64,000 nucleotides of DNA from Fibrobacter sp. UWP2 (lineage in GTDB: Bacteria > Fibrobacterota > Fibrobacteria > Fibrobacterales > Fibrobacteraceae), in NCBI RefSeq assembly GCF_900141705.1, contig NZ_FQYM01000001.1:186001-250000 (forward strand). The letters run 5' to 3'. The translations under genes were made by a program, and so were the position numbers. Under the pieces are notes generated by a model. That model was given only the letters and a program-made list of their open reading frames with translations. It had not been told where the DNA came from and searched no databases. Shown one piece after another: positions 3,701 through 15,635 of the stretch. How positions within the stretch are numbered: the first letter of the stretch is position 1; each line of letters starts with the position of its first letter.

Positions 3701-6048
3701 TCCAAAATCTCGGAAATGTTCTTGCCCTTAAAATAAATCTCGCGAGTCGCATCGTTAAATCGCTTGCCGTCGCAAACGTCGCAAGTCACCTGTACGCTCG
3801 GCAAAATGTGCATGTCCACGACTTTGACGCCCGCACCCTCGCAGGCGTCGCAGCGGCCACCCTTCACGTTAAAGCTAAAACGGCTCTTGGTATAGCCGCG
3901 GATCTTGCTCTCGGGCAGGTTCCCAAACAAGTCGCGAATGTCGTCCCAAATCTTGGTGTAGGTCGCCGGATTACTGCGCGGCGTGCGGCCAATGGGCGTC
4001 TGGTCGATTTCAATCACCTTGTCGATGTTCTCAAGCCCTTCCAGGTGGTCGAACTTGCCCACCGGTTCCTCGGAATTGTAGAACACGCGCGCCAGTTCAC
4101 GGCGCAAAATCTGGTTCACGAGCGTACTCTTGCCGCTCCCGCTCACGCCGGTCACCACGGTGAACGCGCCGCCTAGCGGGATTTCAACATCGATATTCTT
4201 GAGGTTGTTCTCGCAGGCACCGCAAATCTTGAGCTTGGGCGTGTTCTTGTCGATCTTCATGCGCTTTTGCGGCACCTCAATCGCCTTGCGCCCGCTCAAG
4301 TAGGCTCCCGTCAGGCTCGACTTGTTCTTCTCAAGTTCCTCGACCGTGCCCGCCGCAATCACACGGCCGCCCTCAACACCCGCCCCCGGGCCCACATCGA
4401 CCACGTAGTCGGCGTGCCGCATGGTGTCTTCGTCATGCTCCACAATAATGAGGCTGTTGCCCTGTGCCCGCAAGTGTTCAAGCATCTCGAGCAGTTTGTC
4501 GTTGTCGCGCGGGTGCAAGCCTATGCTCGGTTCGTCCATCACGTAGAGCACGCCCTGGAGACCCGCGCCCACTGCACTCGCAAGGCGGATGCGCTGCGCC
4601 TCGCCGCCGCTCAGCGTAGAAGACTTACGGCTAATGTTCAGGTAGCCAAGCCCCACCGTTTGCAAAAAGCTCAAACGCCCGCGAATCTCCTTGAAAATTT
4701 CCTTGCCAATACGCTGTTCGCGGTCAGAGAGCTTAAGGTTGTTGAAGAACTCCACAGACTTTTCTACAGACCACGACGTCATCTCGGTCAAATTCACCCC
4801 GTGGAACGTGACCGCGTTCGCAATGCGGTTCACGCGCGTGCCGTGGCATTCCGGGCACACGCCAATCTGCATGTACTTGCGAAAATGGAAAATATGCCAC
4901 ATGTCCCACAGCCCCTGCATCACCGTCATCACACCGGTCTCGGATTCGCTCGGTGTCCCGTACAAAAAGGCGTGGCGTTGTTTTTCGGTAAGCTTGTTCC
5001 ACGGCGTGTCGAGGCTGCAGTGCATCTCATTGGCGATGGTGCGGAAGTTCCGCCACCCAAAGTCGCTAAAGATAATGTTGCCGTCGTCCTTCTTTTGGGT
5101 GGCAAAGCAACCCTGCTTAATGGACTTGCTCTTGTCGGGAATCACCAGGTCCAAATCGAACTTGCAACTCTCGCCAAGGCCCATACAAACCGGACAACGC
5201 CCCTTGGGGTCGTTAAAACTAAAGAAACGCGGTTCCAACTCGGGGATGGAGATTCCGCACTTGGGGCAAGCCAATTCCGTGCCCTGCAGGCGGTATTCCT
5301 CGGCAGCCTTTTTCCCCGAAGAAGCCTCGGCGGCAAACAAAAAGCTCACCAGTTTGCCATCCGTCAGTTTGAGCGCCCCTTCGAGCGCCTCGCGCAGGCG
5401 GCTCATGTTCTTGCGCTCCAGAGTCAATCGGTCAATGACCGCCTCAATGGTGTGCTTTTCGTAACGCACCAGGGCGGGGACCTCCTCAAGGCGGTAAATG
5501 ACGCCATCAACGCGGGCGCGTACAAATCCTTTTTCCTTGAGTTCGGCAAGTTCCTTGCGGTATTCGCCCTTGCGCTCTTGCACAATCGGCGCCATCACCG
5601 TAATTTGACGACCCTCGTCGCCCGCATAAAGGTTGTCCACAATCTGGTCCACCGTCTGCGCCTGGATAACGCGACCGCAGTCCGGGCAGTGCGGCACGCC
5701 CAAGCGCGCAAACAGCAGGCGGTAATGGTCCAGAATCTCCACCACCGTCCCCACCGTTGAGCGCGGGTTCCTGTTCACCGTCTTCTGGTCAATCGAAATC
5801 GTCGGCGAAATCCCGCGAACGCTCTCCACGTCGGGGTGCTTCATGCGGCCAATGAACTGGCGCGCGTATGCCGAGAGCGACTCCACAAAACGCCGTTGCC
5901 CCTCCTGGAACACTGTGTCGAACGCCAGGCTCGACTTGCCCGAACCCGAGACCCCGGTCACCACCACTATGGAATCGCGCGGGATGTTCAGGTTCACATG
6001 CTGCAAATTGTGTTCGTGGGCGTCACGGATATCAATGGACTTCGTCAT
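766..6048 (-). CDS. uvrA: Tandem-fused excinuclease UvrA (two UvrA units in one chain)
   Basis: A 1760-residue protein, nearly twice the usual 940 or so of UvrA, the damage-recognition ATPase of nucleotide excision repair. Four Walker A sites of the GVSGSGKS type lie near residues 32, 634, 986 and 1489. Four ABC signatures (LSGGEAQR twice, LSGGESQR, MSGGENQR) lie near 480, 825, 1329 and 1667, each followed by a Walker B of the type LDEPTTGLH. Both zinc-finger modules are kept in each unit (CPKCG...CPVC and CDACEG...CDVC in the first; CAKCG...CETC and CEACEG...CEVC in the second). The second unit begins near residue 956. No frameshift or lost catalytic motif is visible in either half. Canonical UvrA acts as a dimer, so this chain may be a covalent dimer; a similar double-length UvrA is known from Chlamydia. 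The ATG is only 5 bases after TATATTTA (6060-6053), suggesting a leaderless mRNA. Confidence 0.95.
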   Translation of the reverse strand: MTKSIDIRDAHEHNLQHVNLNIPRDSIVVVTGVSGSGKSSLAFDTVFQEGQRRFVESLSAYARQFIGRMKHPDVESVRGISPTISIDQKTVNRNPRSTVGTVVEILDHYRLLFARLGVPHCPDCGRVIQAQTVDQIVDNLYAGDEGRQITVMAPIVQERKGEYRKELAELKEKGFVRARVDGVIYRLEEVPALVRYEKHTIEAVIDRLTLERKNMSRLREALEGALKLTDGKLVSFLFAAEASSGKKAAEEYRLQGTELACPKCGISIPELEPRFFSFNDPKGRCPVCMGLGESCKFDLDLVIPDKSKSIKQGCFATQKKDDGNIIFSDFGWRNFRTIANEMHCSLDTPWNKLTEKQRHAFLYGTPSESETGVMTVMQGLWDMWHIFHFRKYMQIGVCPECHGTRVNRIANAVTFHGVNLTEMTSWSVEKSVEFFNNLKLSDREQRIGKEIFKEIRGRLSFLQTVGLGYLNISRKSSTLSGGEAQRIRLASAVGAGLQGVLYVMDEPSIGLHPRDNDKLLEMLEHLRAQGNSLIIVEHDEDTMRHADYVVDVGPGAGVEGGRVIAAGTVEELEKNKSSLTGAYLSGRKAIEVPQKRMKIDKNTPKLKICGACENNLKNIDVEIPLGGAFTVVTGVSGSGKSTLVNQILRRELARVFYNSEEPVGKFDHLEGLENIDKVIEIDQTPIGRTPRSNPATYTKIWDDIRDLFGNLPESKIRGYTKSRFSFNVKGGRCDACEGAGVKVVDMHILPSVQVTCDVCDGKRFNDATREIYFKGKNISEILDLSISEASEFFKDQPKIAEPLKLLEEVGLGYLRLGQPSTTLSGGEAQRVKIASELRRPGTGKTLYLLDEPTTGLHFEDIRKLLDCLNRLRSLGNSVVVIEHNLDVIKCADWIIDLGPDAGEHGGRVIAKGTPEQIARCKKSETGRYLLPVLAKKHGENKQFNRSLKAGEGYSLDIEVHGARKHNLKNIDVTIPRHKLTVITGVSGSGKSSLAFHTLFSEGQRRFVETLSTYARRFLGRPDHGSIDSITGLAPAIAIDQKSASKSPRSTVATLTEIYDYFRILWARVGTPHCLHCGKPVASYSAGDLMQYAFDRDNEKMITILTPIELKDVLKTSQVLVDKGYRKAYLGGKMVDLPLPKLPTREKQVLAVADQVVVREANRARLVEAFERGYRDGNGILYVEDEAGKRLACSEKPGCAKCGWYMDSALNPRYFSFNTHWGACETCLGLGHFKDGKVCPDCHGERLKPEFLAVRICGKNIMDVNHMSIDEARDWFASVDFSKDDGMVQSAESKKTIAEPLLREIIGRLDFLKSVGLGYIGLDRAGDTLSGGESQRIRLASQIGSGLEGVMYVLDEPTVGLHESDTAKLLDSLYRLRDLGNTLVVVEHDMNMMRAADHIIDMGPAAGEFGGEVVAEGSPTQLSKPYALQQFPRSETVKYLTHSIPLANETSPKSITDNTEFYEFKGLVKNNLKNLSVKFPKGAVSVVCGVSGSGKSSMVMDEVFPALKKKFQARGRKKQSGEVLYVDQSPISGTPRSTPASYTGVFDDIRRLFAKLPQSKVKGFDYGRFSYNLARGRCEACEGRGAVAVEMHFLSDIWEPCEVCGGKRYNQETLTVAFKGKNIADVLDMRIAEACEFFKDQPKILPKLEILRDVGLGYLRLGQPVTTMSGGENQRLKLAAELAKRSHGEMVYLLDEPTTGLHLKDIQMLWNLLRRLSARGDTVIVIEHHPDIIRLADWKVELGPVGGSKGGYLLNMGKNDP

Positions 6049-6052
6049 GCCG

Positions 6053-6060
6053 TAAATATA
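6053..6060 (-). promoter_or_regulatory. -10 element of uvrA
   Basis: TATATTTA on the minus strand ends 5 bases before the uvrA start codon. This leaves no room for a ribosome site, so the transcript probably begins at or next to the ATG. Confidence 0.5.
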
Positions 6061-6112
6061 GTGAACATTTGAACATATTTCAAGTATCCAACTCCTCTAC
6101 AACTTCAAATCA

Positions 6113-6143
6113 TTGACGAAAAAAACGAAATAAAGTATATTTG
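6113..6143 (+). promoter_or_regulatory. Promoter of tRNA-Ala
   Basis: TTGACG (6113-6118), a 17-base spacer and TATATTTG (6136-6143). The -35 and spacer fit the general sigma-70 pattern, and the extended -10 ends 12 bases before the mature tRNA 5' end. The same -10 to RNA distance is seen at tRNA-Leu. Confidence 0.75.
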
Positions 6144-6154
6144 GGTCTCCCAAT

Positions 6155-6227
6155 GGGGATATAGCTCAGTTGGTAGAGCGACAGGTTCGCAATCTGTAGG
6201 TCATGGGTTCGACTCCCACTATCTCCA
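6155..6227 (+). tRNA. tRNA-Ala, anticodon CGC
   Basis: A 73-base cloverleaf. The acceptor stem GGGGATA/TATCTCC contains the G3-U70 wobble pair that specifies alanine. D stem GCTC/GAGC, anticodon stem ACAGG/TCTGT, loop TTCGCAA with anticodon CGC at 6188-6190, and T loop TTCGACT. The outermost T-stem pair is an A-C mismatch. The discriminator is A and CCA is not encoded (the next bases are CGC), so CCA must be added after transcription. Confidence 0.95.
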
Positions 6228-6230
6228 CGC

Positions 6231-6260
6231 AAAAAGCCGGCACAATGTGTCGGCTTTTTG
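6231..6260. terminator. Bidirectional terminator between tRNA-Ala and 6265-7626
   Basis: Stem AAAAAGCCG (6231-6239) with CGGCTTTTT (6251-6259) plus inner ACA/TGT pairing. T tracts on both strands let it serve the tRNA and the convergent outer-membrane gene. Confidence 0.85.
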
Positions 6261-6264
6261 GCTT

Positions 6265-7626
6265 TTAAAGTTCGAATTTCACACCAGCCTTGACTTCGCT
6301 CAAAAAACTGTTCTCGGGGAACACCCCTACAAGGGACTTGGGCATCTTGTAATGCAAGTATATCTGTTCCACGCCGGCATACAAGGTGAGAAGTCCCGGA
6401 TTCCAGTTGAACGACAGCCCCCAGGTCCCCGAGAACTTCTGCAATTTTTCGTACTCGGCCGAGGGTCCGTCGATCATGTAGCCATAAAACAGGTTGAGTT
6501 TAGCCTCAAGCGAAATCTTTGTTTTAAACTTGTACGAGAACGTAGAGCGCATCGCAGGTCCCAACCAGCGCGCCCATGAATAATCCAACGTAATGGATTC
6601 CTCTTCTTCGCCCTCTTCCTGCTGCATATCCGCATACATATACGAAGACACCAGCCCATTGTAGAGGTCAAAACATTCCTCCCCGTGGTCCTGGTAGCAA
6701 AGATCCATGTAGTATTCAAAGGGCTTGTACACGCTGCCGTACCCGTAGCCGCCCCACGGGTTGCTGTCTATGCAGTTGCCGTAGAAGTCACGTTGGCAGT
6801 CGGCATTGGGCTCGCCCCCCTCAGCCTCGTCATTTGAGCTCTCGGCGATGAAGGCGATCTTCTCGATAAATCCCAAAAAGTCCGAGAGCGAGTCGGCCTC
6901 GTACTTGACGCCCACATACACGTTCCCGTTAAAACCCGTAGGCACAGCCCTGTGCCAGGAGCCGTACAGAGCAACCGACAGCGGCCCTCCATCGTGGTAA
7001 TACGCCCATGTTGCCAAACCCAGGCGCTGTTTTTCAAAACGGGCAATATCCACCTCGAGCCATCCGTAAAACGCAGGCTCCATGTTCGCCTCGCTCGAGA
7101 GGTTAAAATCAACACCCACATCCAAAAGAAACCTTTTACCCACCAGGGAGTACTCCAAGCCCGGGGCAAGAGTCCAATCGCTCGTATCGAGCACCGGCAT
7201 GTCCTTGTTCGCAATGAACCAGTCCGCCACAAAGGCGACACCCACCGAGTGGATCCAGTCGCCAAGCGAAAAATCGACAAAGCCCGCTACCGAGGTAAAG
7301 ATGTCGCCGCCATTCTCCTTAACGGCATCGATACCGCCGTATTCCTCGTAATGGAGGCCGATATAGCCCAGGTCACCCAAAAAACGGAAAGACCAGGGTT
7401 CCTGCCCCTCGGACATTCCCAGCACGTCGTAGTAATCTTTAAGAATTTCCTGGATTTCCTTGGTGTACTCCCCATCCATTTGGGCGGCTTCCTCAAAAAG
7501 CGCCACGGACTTGGGAATATCACCCGCCTTTTCGGCCTCGAGGGCACGAGAATACACCTGTTCCTGGGTCTCTGCAAACAACACAGACGACAGCAATAGC
7601 GATATGACTATCGCAATCGGTCGCAT
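6265..7626 (-). CDS. Putative outer-membrane beta-barrel protein with short TPR-like N-terminus
   Basis: 453 residues. Residues 1-18 form a signal peptide (MRPIAIVISLLLSSVLFA). Residues about 20-65 read like one or two TPR-type helices (SRALEAEKAGDIPKSVALFE). From about residue 85 the sequence alternates hydrophobic and polar residues in strands rich in Gly, Tyr and Trp and ends in Phe-Glu-Leu, as expected of an outer-membrane barrel. An acidic loop rich in Glu lies near residue 345. The start codon directly follows the stop of the upstream gene at 7627, so the two are translated from one operon. Substrate and role cannot be read from the sequence. Confidence 0.75.
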   Translation of the reverse strand: MRPIAIVISLLLSSVLFAETQEQVYSRALEAEKAGDIPKSVALFEEAAQMDGEYTKEIQEILKDYYDVLGMSEGQEPWSFRFLGDLGYIGLHYEEYGGIDAVKENGGDIFTSVAGFVDFSLGDWIHSVGVAFVADWFIANKDMPVLDTSDWTLAPGLEYSLVGKRFLLDVGVDFNLSSEANMEPAFYGWLEVDIARFEKQRLGLATWAYYHDGGPLSVALYGSWHRAVPTGFNGNVYVGVKYEADSLSDFLGFIEKIAFIAESSNDEAEGGEPNADCQRDFYGNCIDSNPWGGYGYGSVYKPFEYYMDLCYQDHGEECFDLYNGLVSSYMYADMQQEEGEEEESITLDYSWARWLGPAMRSTFSYKFKTKISLEAKLNLFYGYMIDGPSAEYEKLQKFSGTWGLSFNWNPGLLTLYAGVEQIYLHYKMPKSLVGVFPENSFLSEVKAGVKFEL

Positions 7627-11652: not shown

Positions 11653-12087
11653 TTACTTTTCGAGTTCGCGAACGGCAACAACGTTGCCTTCGGCGTCAAG
11701 AGCGCGCACGACGTTGCCATCGCGTTCGAGCTTGATCTGAGCAGTTTCGCCCTGAGCGGTGGTGATGGTGGCGGAGAGAGAACCGTCAGCATTCTTCACA
11801 GCGGCAATGGTGTTGCCCTGAGCGTCCTGTTCGTAGTAGCTGTCACCAGCGGCGAGCGGGTTGGAGCCAGTCCAGAATTCCACAGTGTTGAGCACGAGGA
11901 TGTCAACGAACGTAGCAATGCCGTAAACCGGGATGACCATCATGGCAAAGTGAACGATAGAGTTGAGCCACTTGTTGCCAAGAGTGCCGTTCCAGCTGAG
12001 AAGCTTGTTGAAGCAGGCGTAGCTGCCGTAGCAACCAGTGAGAGTGATCATGCTTGCGCAAATAACTGCAGCGAGAGCTTTTTTCAT
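11653..12087 (-). CDS. DUF3332-like lipoprotein
   Basis: 144 residues. The signal peptide ends in a lipobox (ITLTGC), so Cys19 is probably lipidated. The sequence after it (CFNKLLSWNGTLGNKWLNS) and the hydrophobic stretch VHFAMMVIPVYGIATFVDILV match the pattern I know for the DUF3332 family of the Bacteroidetes and relatives. The C-terminal 70 residues contain repeated beta turns (DAQGNTI, KNADGSL, DAEGNVV). A clear AGGAG ribosome site precedes the ATG. A TATATTTT element (12145-12138) gives a leader of about 45 bases. It has its own terminator and is therefore a single-gene unit. Function unknown. Confidence 0.75.
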   Translation of the reverse strand: MKKALAAVICASMITLTGCYGSYACFNKLLSWNGTLGNKWLNSIVHFAMMVIPVYGIATFVDILVLNTVEFWTGSNPLAAGDSYYEQDAQGNTIAAVKNADGSLSATITTAQGETAQIKLERDGNVVRALDAEGNVVAVRELEK

Positions 12088-12360: not shown

Positions 12361-13872
12361 ATGACATTGAGCCGTCGCTTTGCCGTTGCCGCATTTTTTG
12401 CGCTGATTTCGTCTGCCTTTGCCGCAGGACCTCTTACTGTTTGGATTATGCCCAACGGGGCCACCCCGCAGCAAAAACTGGAACAACGCCTGGAGGCATT
12501 TACCAAAAAAACGGGAATCAAAACCCAAGTGCAGGTGCTGGACTGGGGCGAAGCATGGAACCGCATTTCGAACGTTCTCGCCACGGGCGAGGACGCCCCC
12601 GACGTCCTTCAATTAGGGACCACCTGGATACCCTATTTTGCCTCCAAGCAACAGATTAAGCCCCTGAACCCGTGGCTTGACAAGATTGATTCCAGCCGTT
12701 TTGTCCCCACCAGCTGGCATACCTCGCATATTGAGTCCGACACCACCATCTATTCGGTCCCTTGGTTCATCGACGTTCGACCCCTGCTGGGCAACAAGCG
12801 CATTTTAAGGGAGAACGGGATTTCCAGCGATAATGTTTCCTCTTACGAAGGCTTTGTAGACGCCATCAAAAAAATCAACTCGCGCAAAGAAATTCTTGAA
12901 AACGGCGTGAAAGTCCGCGCCTACGCCTTCCCCGGCAAAAGCGACTGGAACATCCCCCACAACTTTGCCCCGTGGATTTGGAGCAACGGCGGAGACTTTA
13001 TTGCAAAGGACAAGAACGGCAAGTGGCACGCCAACATTTTGAGTGAAAGGACGTTGTTCGGCATCGCCAAGTACCTGAACTTTGTGCTAGACTCCTTGGT
13101 TCTAAGCGACGTTTTACAAAACAACACGGCACAAATCGCGCAGCAGTTCAATGCGGGCGAACTCGCGTTTATCGTGAGCACGTCCGAAATAGTTATGCAA
13201 GTCCATTTTGACGGCACCAAAGGCGGACTCTCGGGAGCCCAGATTGGGAGCGACAGCATTGTGGCGCTCCCCTTCCCCAAGGGATCCGCCGGATCGGTTA
13301 GCTTTATTGGCGGAAGCAACCTCGCCATACCCGCCGGCAACAAGCGCCCCGAGGCAATCAAGCTCCTGCTATTCCTCACAAACGACGAGAACCTGGACGC
13401 CTACACTAAGCAAATCGGATTCCTCCCCGCGTCCAAGAAGGTCCTCGAAACTTGGTCCACCGACGAAAACTACCGTGTACTTGTCGAAGCACTTAAGACT
13501 GGCAAAACCTACACAGCTATCCCCGAGTGGGGCGACATCGAACAGAGCCTAGTCTCCATGTTCAGCGAAACCTGGGACCACCTGGAGATTCCAGCCCTCT
13601 ACTCCGAAGAAAAACTGTACCAGATTTTCTCGAACTACTCCGCGGCTATCGACAAACAGCTGAGCTACACCGCCACGGGAACCATGACGTTCGCCGAATT
13701 CCAAAGCGTGTGGCACAAGGCACTTGGCATCAAGGACGAACCGGAAAAAGAACCCGACGCGACCGACGATAAAAAAGCCATTGTTGAAGAGAACCTGCGA
13801 AAGGCGCCCTGGGTATTTGCCGTCATGCTGTTCCTCGGGTTCCTGTTCTCCCTCAAACGCAAAAAGAAGTAA
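12361..13872 (+). CDS. Solute-binding protein with C-terminal transmembrane anchor
   Basis: 503 residues from ATG 12361, chosen because a signal peptide (MTLSRRFAVAAFFALISSAFA) begins there and AGGAAG precedes it; an in-frame start 132 bases upstream would bury the signal peptide. Residues about 24-440 have the layout of extracellular solute-binding proteins of the sugar type, with TVWIMPNG at the front, FGEAWNRI-like core and SFIGGSNLAIPAG. Unlike ordinary binding proteins it continues through a linker into a hydrophobic helix (about 483-498) ended by LKRKKK, so it should be held in the inner membrane facing the periplasm. No permease or ATPase gene is adjacent. The diguanylate cyclase starts 3 bases after its stop, suggesting that it senses rather than imports a ligand. 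Confidence 0.85.
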   Translation: MTLSRRFAVAAFFALISSAFAAGPLTVWIMPNGATPQQKLEQRLEAFTKKTGIKTQVQVLDWGEAWNRISNVLATGEDAPDVLQLGTTWIPYFASKQQIKPLNPWLDKIDSSRFVPTSWHTSHIESDTTIYSVPWFIDVRPLLGNKRILRENGISSDNVSSYEGFVDAIKKINSRKEILENGVKVRAYAFPGKSDWNIPHNFAPWIWSNGGDFIAKDKNGKWHANILSERTLFGIAKYLNFVLDSLVLSDVLQNNTAQIAQQFNAGELAFIVSTSEIVMQVHFDGTKGGLSGAQIGSDSIVALPFPKGSAGSVSFIGGSNLAIPAGNKRPEAIKLLLFLTNDENLDAYTKQIGFLPASKKVLETWSTDENYRVLVEALKTGKTYTAIPEWGDIEQSLVSMFSETWDHLEIPALYSEEKLYQIFSNYSAAIDKQLSYTATGTMTFAEFQSVWHKALGIKDEPEKEPDATDDKKAIVEENLRKAPWVFAVMLFLGFLFSLKRKKK

Positions 13873-13875
13873 CCT

Positions 13876-15603
13876 ATGAAAAACGTAAAGGTCACTACAT
13901 TTTCGCAAAGCATCATTTTCAAGAGCCTTTTGTTCTTGGTGATTTCCATGTTACTCATTGTAACAGTGGGCACCTACTTTTTCACCCAGAGGCAACTGGA
14001 ATCGACAGTCCAATACAACTACAGTTCCAACGAAGCCCGTTTGCAGCAGCTCGCATTCTCGGCAAACAACGAAATGGAACAGTTCGGGAGTAGGCTCTCC
14101 CTGCTCGCTAAGACCTCCGAAATCGCGACCATGGACCCGGTGATTGCAGCGGGCCATCTCAAGAGCTACACCATCTCGTCCATGTTCTCGTCGGGCGAAA
14201 CCGTTTCGCTGTATGACCACCAAGAACAACTCATTTGCGACAATTCGATGCTCGAGACCGCCAAGGCGATTTACCCCGTGGAGTTCGGCAAGATTTCGCC
14301 ACACAGGCCCTATGTTACACCTTGGTACCGCGAAGGCGACGGCATACCCAAGCGCGCCTTTGCCGCCGTTGTCTCGGACCGAACAAGCAATGGCGGTTAC
14401 ATTGTGGCAAGCTTTAGCATGCGCCGCCTTTGGAAATACTTTAGCGAGTTCAAGGTCGGGCAAAACGGGTTCGTAATCGCCATCAACACGGCAGGCGAAA
14501 TCCTCTACCACCCCGACCTCAAAAAATGGATGGACGGGGTCCACCGCATTTCAGAAACAGGATTCGAGGATTTTAACGTCCAGACCTACGAAATCAACAA
14601 GCCGACCTTTATCAAACTGAATGACGGACACCGCTACCTGATCAACTACAACTTTAACGCCGAATACAACCTAGGGCTCATCACGCTCCAGCCCAAGTCC
14701 GAAATCGACGCCTCGGTATCGACAGTCAAGTTCATCAGCAAAGTCATCCTCGCCTTCGCCATGCTCGCCATCTTGCTGGTCGCATTCTGGCTGATTCTCA
14801 TTCTCGGGCGGCCCATGAACCGCCTCATTGAGCACATTTCCAAAATCACCAACGGCAACATCGACATCGACGAAATCAACGTGGGCAACCGCAAGGACGA
14901 AATCGGCCAGCTCTCGAGGGCGTTCAACCAAATGCACAGCACCATCAAGCGGCAAATCAAAGAACTGAACGCCCACCGCGAAATGCTGGAACAAGAAGTC
15001 CAGGAACGCACCCAGGAACTGGAAGAGGCAAACAAGAAACTCGACCTTATTTCGAGGACCGACGACCTGACCCAGCTTCCCAACCGTCGCGACATGCACG
15101 AGACAATTGACAACGAGGTCGGCCGCAGCGCCCGCACCCACAAGCCGTTCTGCTTTATTTTCTTTGACATAGACCACTTCAAGAACGTGAACGACACCTA
15201 CGGGCACGCCGCCGGCGACCTGGTCCTCAAGGCGGTGTCGTCGACCATCCGCGGGCTTTTGCGCAAGTACGACGTGCTGGCCCGCTATGGCGGCGAGGAG
15301 TTCTTGACCCTGTTGCCCGAAACGGACCTGGAAGGGGCAGCCATCGTCGCGGAGCGCTTCCGCAAAAAAATCGAAAAGCTCTCCATTAGCTTTGCCGAAC
15401 AAAAAATCAAGGTGACCATTACCCTGGGGGTCGCCCTGTACGACGACCGGCTGGGCGCCGACCGGAGCATTCAGCAGGCCGACAAAGCGCTATACGAGGG
15501 CAAAGAGACCGGGCGCAACAAGGTCGTCATCTGGGACCCCGAACGCACCAGTGAAGAGGATTACAAGCAGGCGGCCATCGAAGAAGCTCGCGACCGCAGG
15601 TAA
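13876..15603 (+). CDS. Membrane diguanylate cyclase with Cache sensor, HAMP and GGDEF domains
   Basis: 575 residues. Transmembrane helix 1 (about 14-33), a periplasmic region of about 250 residues resembling a double Cache sensor, helix 2 (about 287-312), a HAMP domain (GRPMNRLIEHI onwards, to about 362), a coiled coil rich in Gln and Glu (about 362-400), then the GGDEF domain. The active site is GGEEF at 472-476, with an RxxD product-inhibition site (RKYD, 463-466) correctly placed nine residues before it. DIDHFKNVNDTYGH and the TITLGVA segment are also typical. It should make cyclic di-GMP in response to a periplasmic signal. Co-transcribed with the anchored solute-binding protein, which is the obvious candidate partner. 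Confidence 0.95.
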   Translation: MKNVKVTTFSQSIIFKSLLFLVISMLLIVTVGTYFFTQRQLESTVQYNYSSNEARLQQLAFSANNEMEQFGSRLSLLAKTSEIATMDPVIAAGHLKSYTISSMFSSGETVSLYDHQEQLICDNSMLETAKAIYPVEFGKISPHRPYVTPWYREGDGIPKRAFAAVVSDRTSNGGYIVASFSMRRLWKYFSEFKVGQNGFVIAINTAGEILYHPDLKKWMDGVHRISETGFEDFNVQTYEINKPTFIKLNDGHRYLINYNFNAEYNLGLITLQPKSEIDASVSTVKFISKVILAFAMLAILLVAFWLILILGRPMNRLIEHISKITNGNIDIDEINVGNRKDEIGQLSRAFNQMHSTIKRQIKELNAHREMLEQEVQERTQELEEANKKLDLISRTDDLTQLPNRRDMHETIDNEVGRSARTHKPFCFIFFDIDHFKNVNDTYGHAAGDLVLKAVSSTIRGLLRKYDVLARYGGEEFLTLLPETDLEGAAIVAERFRKKIEKLSISFAEQKIKVTITLGVALYDDRLGADRSIQQADKALYEGKETGRNKVVIWDPERTSEEDYKQAAIEEARDRR

Positions 15604-15604
15604 A

Positions 15605-15635
15605 CAAAAAAGACTCGCTAAAGCGAGTCTTTTTT
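15605..15635. terminator. Bidirectional terminator between cyclase gene and tRNA-Pro
   Basis: Perfect stem AAAAAAGACTCGC/GCGAGTCTTTTTT with a TAAA loop. T tracts on both strands serve the cyclase operon (+) and tRNA-Pro (-). Confidence 0.9.

Follow-up and report, generated by a model that had tools for sequence, protein, structure and literature searches.

A membrane-tethered, cellobiose-type solute-binding protein as a likely co-receptor of a diguanylate cyclase in Fibrobacter

What does a solute-binding protein (SBP) do when it carries a membrane anchor of its own, has no transporter beside it, and is encoded directly upstream of a diguanylate cyclase (DGC)? This question is raised by two genes in a stretch of 64,000 nucleotides (the window, meaning the whole of the DNA that was analyzed) from Fibrobacter sp. 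UWP2 (GCF_900141705.1, NZ_FQYM01000001.1:186,001-250,000, forward strand). It is likely that a transport SBP has here been domesticated as a tethered co-receptor, which tells the DGC of cellobiose-like sugars. An earlier note on this DNA had proposed an SBP-DGC signaling unit; conservation of the pair, loss of the ATP-binding cassette (ABC) partner, and parallel SBP-sensor pairs now speak for this proposal, and one clade that has the DGC with no adjacent SBP speaks against it. The parts of the two genes are as follows, where pLDDT is the predicted local distance difference test score of a structural model.

12361-12426, plus strand: Sec-type signal peptide of the SBP, without a lipobox (MTLSRRFAVAAFFALISSAFAA; from sequence, and the same in all paired orthologues).
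12433-13671, plus strand: solute-binding domain of the CbpB/betaGlyBP type (PF13416/PF01547, PDB matches, model comparison).
13672-13809, plus strand: charged linker joining the binding domain to the anchor (from sequence; pLDDT low at residues 460-471).
13810-13869, plus strand: predicted C-terminal transmembrane helix and KRKKK tail of the SBP, the anchor (hydropathy).
13876-15603, plus strand: DGC, with the order transmembrane helix, dCache, transmembrane helix, HAMP, GGDEF (domain matches, model).
13990-14730, plus strand: periplasmic dCache sensor domain of the DGC (dCache_1, 27.7 bits; model pLDDT 86).
14788-14946, plus strand: HAMP domain of the DGC (PF00672, 46 bits).
15058-15522, plus strand: GGDEF domain of the DGC (PF00990, 164 bits), with the I-site RKYD at 15262-15273 and the active site GGEEF at 15289-15303.
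15606-15635, plus strand: predicted intrinsic terminator ending the two-gene unit (GACTCGC-TAAA-GCGAGTC, T6; -17.2 kcal/mol, z -6.5).

The SBP open reading frame of 503 amino acids (12361-13872, plus strand, with the ATG at 12361 and the TAA at 13870-13872) matches SBP_bac_8 (PF13416, 97 bits) and SBP_bac_1 (PF01547, 87 bits). The earlier note had described a C-terminal transmembrane helix with a basic tail, and the sequence bears this out, as the protein ends in ...KAPWVFAVMLFLGFLFSLKRKKK, with KRKKK as its last residues. By the positive-inside rule, this C-terminus is placed in the cytoplasm. The anchor is a shared property of a group of proteins, since the hydropathy of the C-terminal helix (17-residue) is at least 1.9 in every complete orthologue paired with the DGC and in every copy of SBP2, a widespread second anchored paralogue with 37% identity. 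The value is at most 1.04 in every lipoprotein or signal-less (cytosolic) homologue, indicating that these have no anchor. A lipoprotein identity was ruled out for the window SBP by the missing lipobox. Among the C-terminal sorting signals considered (LPXTG, PEP-CTERM, and GlyGly-CTERM), only LPXTG_anchor gave a match, at 14.1 bits and thus below 15.9, and the LPXTG motif is absent.

Three bases (CCT) separate the SBP stop from the ATG of the DGC at 13876, and both reading frames lie in one frame; judged from this layout, the two genes are one expression unit. The DGC of 575 amino acids ends at 15603 and has the Cache-HAMP-GGDEF architecture with intact GGEEF and RxxD motifs that the note had reported, as sequence and domain matches confirm. 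RKYD (463-466) and GGEEF (472-476) are five residues apart, both are kept in all inspected orthologues, and the GGDEF domain is not accompanied by an EAL domain. The dCache_1 score lies below the curated cut-off of 45, but the predicted structure of the sensor module matches the dCache fold (predicted template modeling score, pTM, 0.72) and resembles dCache receptor domains that include the sensor of a DGC, 7k5n.

Evidence that the two proteins belong together comes from a search for both of them in 168 genomes of Fibrobacterota, the phylum that the survey covers, with coordinates compared. The DGC gene lies immediately downstream on the same strand at all 83 orthologous SBP loci, found in 81 Fibrobacteraceae genomes, so that the further copies the note had suggested looking for do exist. 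Among the matches listed for named GTDB genomes, the pair is present in 57/59, and both exceptions lie at contig ends; F. intestinalis ATCC 43854 is one of these named genomes, as are many metagenome-assembled genomes of F. succinogenes. The gap between the genes ranges elsewhere from a 4-nucleotide overlap to 48 nucleotides. The pair persists in at least seven genera besides Fibrobacter. The other window neighbors are kept at most Fibrobacter loci and were not found beside the pair in L083, L084, L085, L086, L087, and L101, which represent several other genera. The linkage is therefore specific to the SBP and the DGC and goes beyond local synteny.

Two single loci deserve separate mention. 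At L079 (G062, about 5430-7044), the DGC is intact but the SBP gene paired with it is broken into two overlapping frames, owing to a frameshift or an assembly error. At L097:2326-3873 (G124), the C-terminal part of the DGC is in one frame with a lipoprotein/protease-like N-terminus that replaces the sensor, which may be a true fusion or may stem from misassembly.

If the SBP served transport, a permease would be expected. The note had seen no transporter partner, and this holds both at the locus and across the genome (100% complete, 72 contigs), in which a dedicated permease was looked for. Nine permeases were found as BPD_transp_1 matches, and they are of the Opp/Dpp-Yej, His, CysT/CysW, and PotB/PotC types (the ninth, on C30, typed by eye from sequence); none of the nine is MalF/MalG-like (CUT1), and none such lies at the locus, leaving the SBP without a visible importer. 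In other genera of the phylum, the SBP has lipoprotein homologues, most of which sit in MalK/MalF/MalG-type ABC operons with adjoining permeases, one of them next to a GH1 glucosidase, and a tree separates this lipoprotein set from the anchored set. One lipoprotein homologue, in G164, has a GH94 cellobiose phosphorylase-type gene as its neighbor and not ABC genes. In other genera of the family, ABC operons with a lipoprotein SBP were also seen to begin with a small degenerate receiver-like gene (L135:600-1025, L138:7229-7678, and L140:3187-3636).

Members of the same SBP family have become associated with signaling outputs elsewhere in the phylum as well. In G004 (L098:4459-8782), an anchored SBP is encoded next to, and divergently from, a dCache-HAMP-Hpt-HATPase kinase, the sensor region of which resembles that of the window DGC and scores above the dCache_1 cut-off (56.5 bits). 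In G164 (L141:2901-5629) and G165 (L142:2695-5408), the gene of an SBP that lacks a signal peptide overlaps with a GAF-GGDEF gene, and prfA/prmC-like genes lie downstream; this is apparently a cytosolic SBP-cyclase pair. These independent associations argue for a sensing role.

Which ligand might be sensed? The solved structures nearest to the SBP are Thermus thermophilus betaGlyBP (PDB 7c63, 216 bits) and Clostridium thermocellum CbpB (7x0i, 190 bits), the latter of which binds cellobiose to cellopentaose with dissociation constants of 0.6-1.9 uM (PMC9601137). The SBP model superimposes on betaGlyBP with bound cellotetraose (7c68) with a target-normalised template modeling score (TM-score) of 0.92, the range across comparisons being 0.90-0.93. 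Residues of the binding cleft were compared using the betaGlyBP positions mutated by its authors (W41, W67, W177, and E117, taken from PDB entry titles), and CbpB W90 and W296, which stack at subsites +2 and +3. The CbpB residues were mapped through a HMMER alignment with an inferred numbering offset of 48, the one that puts tryptophan at both positions. The predicted correspondences are:

12544-12546, plus strand: W62, equivalent to betaGlyBP W41 and CbpB W90, stacking on glucose at subsite +2 (alignment, model).
12625-12627, plus strand: W89, equivalent to betaGlyBP W67 (alignment, model).
12772-12774, plus strand: D138, equivalent to betaGlyBP E117, a conservative change (alignment, model).
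12946-12948, plus strand: W196, equivalent to betaGlyBP W177 (alignment, model).
13186-13188, plus strand: E276, in place of the stacking tryptophan of subsite +3, CbpB W296 (alignment).

W62, W89, and W196 are present in 17/17 sampled paired SBPs, and together with H200, N201, W205, R140, and N320 they are retained in every paired SBP or nearly every one. Glutamate occupies position 276 in every DGC-paired SBP and every SBP2 paralogue that was sampled, and the HN motif of the pocket has become QQ in SBP2. The retention of W62 together with the loss of the +3 tryptophan favors a short ligand such as cellobiose. The SBP thus probably binds a short, cellobiose-like beta-glucoside, which narrows the note's looser suggestion of a sugar on the basis of solved relatives and conserved pocket tryptophans. 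The same genome also codes for a GH94 phosphorylase.

Complexes of an SBP with a membrane sensor are known from other bacteria, LuxP-LuxQ among them. To our knowledge, no C-terminal SBP anchor occurs in LuxP-LuxQ or in XylFII-LytS, and both differ from the Fibrobacter pair in their histidine kinase output and their unrelated SBP subfamilies. For XylFII-LytS, a solved SBP:sensor structure is cited in PMC9769921. CuaD-CuaSR of Ruminiclostridium cellulolyticum comes closer in ligand, as CuaD is an SBP specific to cellobiose and separate from that of the transporter, and its gene adjoins that of a HAMP sensor in a cellulolytic host; CuaD binds the extracytoplasmic part of its sensor, and CuaSR keeps weak sensing without it (PMC10384115). 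Unlike the Fibrobacter pair, it has a lipoprotein anchor, an output through a histidine kinase and a transcription factor, and a Gram-positive host. NspS-MbaA (Vibrio cholerae, Sinorhizobium) comes closer in output, because an SBP instructs a membrane enzyme of cyclic di-GMP (c-di-GMP) metabolism via its periplasmic domain (PMC8967002), and a corresponding contact in Fibrobacter may be assumed by analogy. NspS, however, is described as a periplasmic binding protein, its ligand is a polyamine, and MbaA has both GGDEF and EAL, whereas the Fibrobacter SBP is of the sugar type with a transmembrane anchor and its partner is GGDEF-only. CbpB (7x0i-n) and betaGlyBP (7c63-7c71) share the fold (TM-score about 0.9), 28-31% identity, and W62/W89/W196 with the SBP, but they serve ABC importers, whereas the Fibrobacter protein has a C-terminal transmembrane anchor, no lipobox, no permeases, and glutamate for the +3 tryptophan. 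According to a 2022 review of c-di-GMP sensing, only SBP_bac_3 (in RmcA) has been studied among the PBP clan domains of c-di-GMP proteins (PMC8846402), and a full-text literature search for a cellobiose-type SBP combined with a c-di-GMP enzyme brought up no paper. No description was found of the combination of a cello-oligosaccharide-type SBP, a C-terminal transmembrane tether, and a GGDEF-only dCache enzyme.

By analogy with these SBP-sensor pairs, a mechanism is likely in which the SBP would be exported by Sec and held in the inner membrane by its C-terminal helix, its binding domain facing the periplasm. A short beta-glucoside, cellobiose or another, that enters the periplasm would close the cleft, and the SBP in its closed (or open) form would make contact with the DGC dimer at the dCache domain. 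The resulting change would travel through the second transmembrane helix and HAMP, setting GGDEF activity and thereby coupling products of cellulose breakdown to c-di-GMP and perhaps to downstream behavior, such as the attachment or release that the note had suggested. Activation is tentatively favored as the sign of the response, because F. succinogenes S85, in which the cue for the GGDEF proteins was stated to be unknown, has about 2.5-fold more c-di-GMP on cellulose (PMC6851124). Machinery for reading out c-di-GMP exists in the UWP2 genome, given 13 GGDEF matches including this DGC, two EAL matches, and one PilZ match. As nearest relatives of the SBP bind cellobiose, the pair is a concrete, genus-wide candidate for the cue behind cellulose-raised c-di-GMP. 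If so, dominant cellulose degraders of the gut would have a direct link from fibre breakdown to c-di-GMP, and the pair would show how a transport SBP becomes a membrane-tethered signaling subunit. A wider and more tentative idea, possible though short of even odds, is that a cello-oligosaccharide transport SBP lineage has become in Fibrobacterota a general sensing module that works without a transporter and exchanges one output for another (dCache-DGC, dCache-histidine kinase, cytosolic SBP with GAF-GGDEF). The Fibrobacter helix would then make the SBP a permanent cyclase subunit, with the sugar signal passing inside a standing SBP-DGC complex and no recruiting of a free periplasmic protein.

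Several observations weigh against a sugar-sensing co-receptor. The +3 tryptophan is gone, and the ligand range may differ from that of CbpB; anchored SBP2 (C3:162006; L003:9920-11494, G000) lies between aroA-like and dacB-like (Peptidase_S13 and amidase-like) genes with no sensor or permease adjoining; the dCache domain of the DGC could bind a ligand of its own; and 13 DGC loci in Fibrobacter have no SBP next door. Structural modeling of the two proteins as a complex, which the note had proposed, was carried out with AlphaFold2 on a read-through fusion with 24 paired rows. It yielded confident domains, but their mutual arrangement was not confident (pTM 0.50), and no interface is therefore claimed. 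That the SBP has lost sugar binding altogether and is now a structural DGC subunit reading another envelope cue is very unlikely: the change to glutamate in all sampled anchored Fibrobacteraceae SBPs would fit such a role, but the eight residues named above, from W62 to N320, are retained in all or almost all paired SBPs. It is also quite unlikely that the SBP still works in transport, supplying an importer whose genes lie elsewhere, and that it is in one operon with the DGC for co-regulation alone. In favor of this, the SBP belongs to a transport family, no ATPase is clustered with the Thermus and Clostridium systems (PMC9601137), and the F. succinogenes SBP FSU_1047, which is 31% identical to CbpB and rises on cellulose, has been proposed as a cellobiose importer subunit (PMC6851124); FSU_1047 may correspond either to the paired SBP or to SBP2. 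Against this stand the absence of a MalF/MalG-type permease from the UWP2 genome, the adjoining permeases of the lipoprotein relatives in ABC operons, and the rigid anchor and strict DGC linkage, which are not features of transport.

The remaining alternative, which is unlikely though to a lesser degree, is that the DGC senses its own ligand via dCache, a fold that often binds small ligands directly, and that the SBP is a separate entity, such as a periplasmic sugar buffer, that is merely co-expressed. The SBP-less loci speak for this explanation, and persistence of the pair outside Fibrobacter speaks against it. The eight complete SBP-less DGCs analyzed form one clade inside Fibrobacter, and their existence indicates that the SBP is not universally needed and that the DGC can be kept where no SBP adjoins it. 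In this single clade, on which the comparison rests, 16/55 otherwise conserved periplasmic positions are changed vs 2/85 in GGDEF (Fisher p about 5e-6), and the cytoplasmic modules are conserved. Two paired DGCs also drift in the periplasmic domain (18/56 changed in L165, 11/55 in L173), L165 keeping 9 and L173 keeping 13 of the 16 clade-changed positions, and the related histidine kinase keeps these 16 no more than other conserved positions (7/16 vs 17/39). The pattern is therefore only suggestive of an SBP-dependent constraint on the DGC, and the tethered co-receptor is retained as the likely role of the SBP.

One neighboring gene recurs at these loci:

11653-12087, minus strand: DUF3332 lipoprotein-like gene, divergently transcribed, a frequent neighbor of the locus (PF11810; synteny).

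Several SBP-less DGC loci adjoin this same divergent gene, consistent with loss of the SBP gene there. As the DUF3332 gene often adjoins the DGC even at loci that lack the SBP gene, it appears to be linked to the DGC and not to the SBP.

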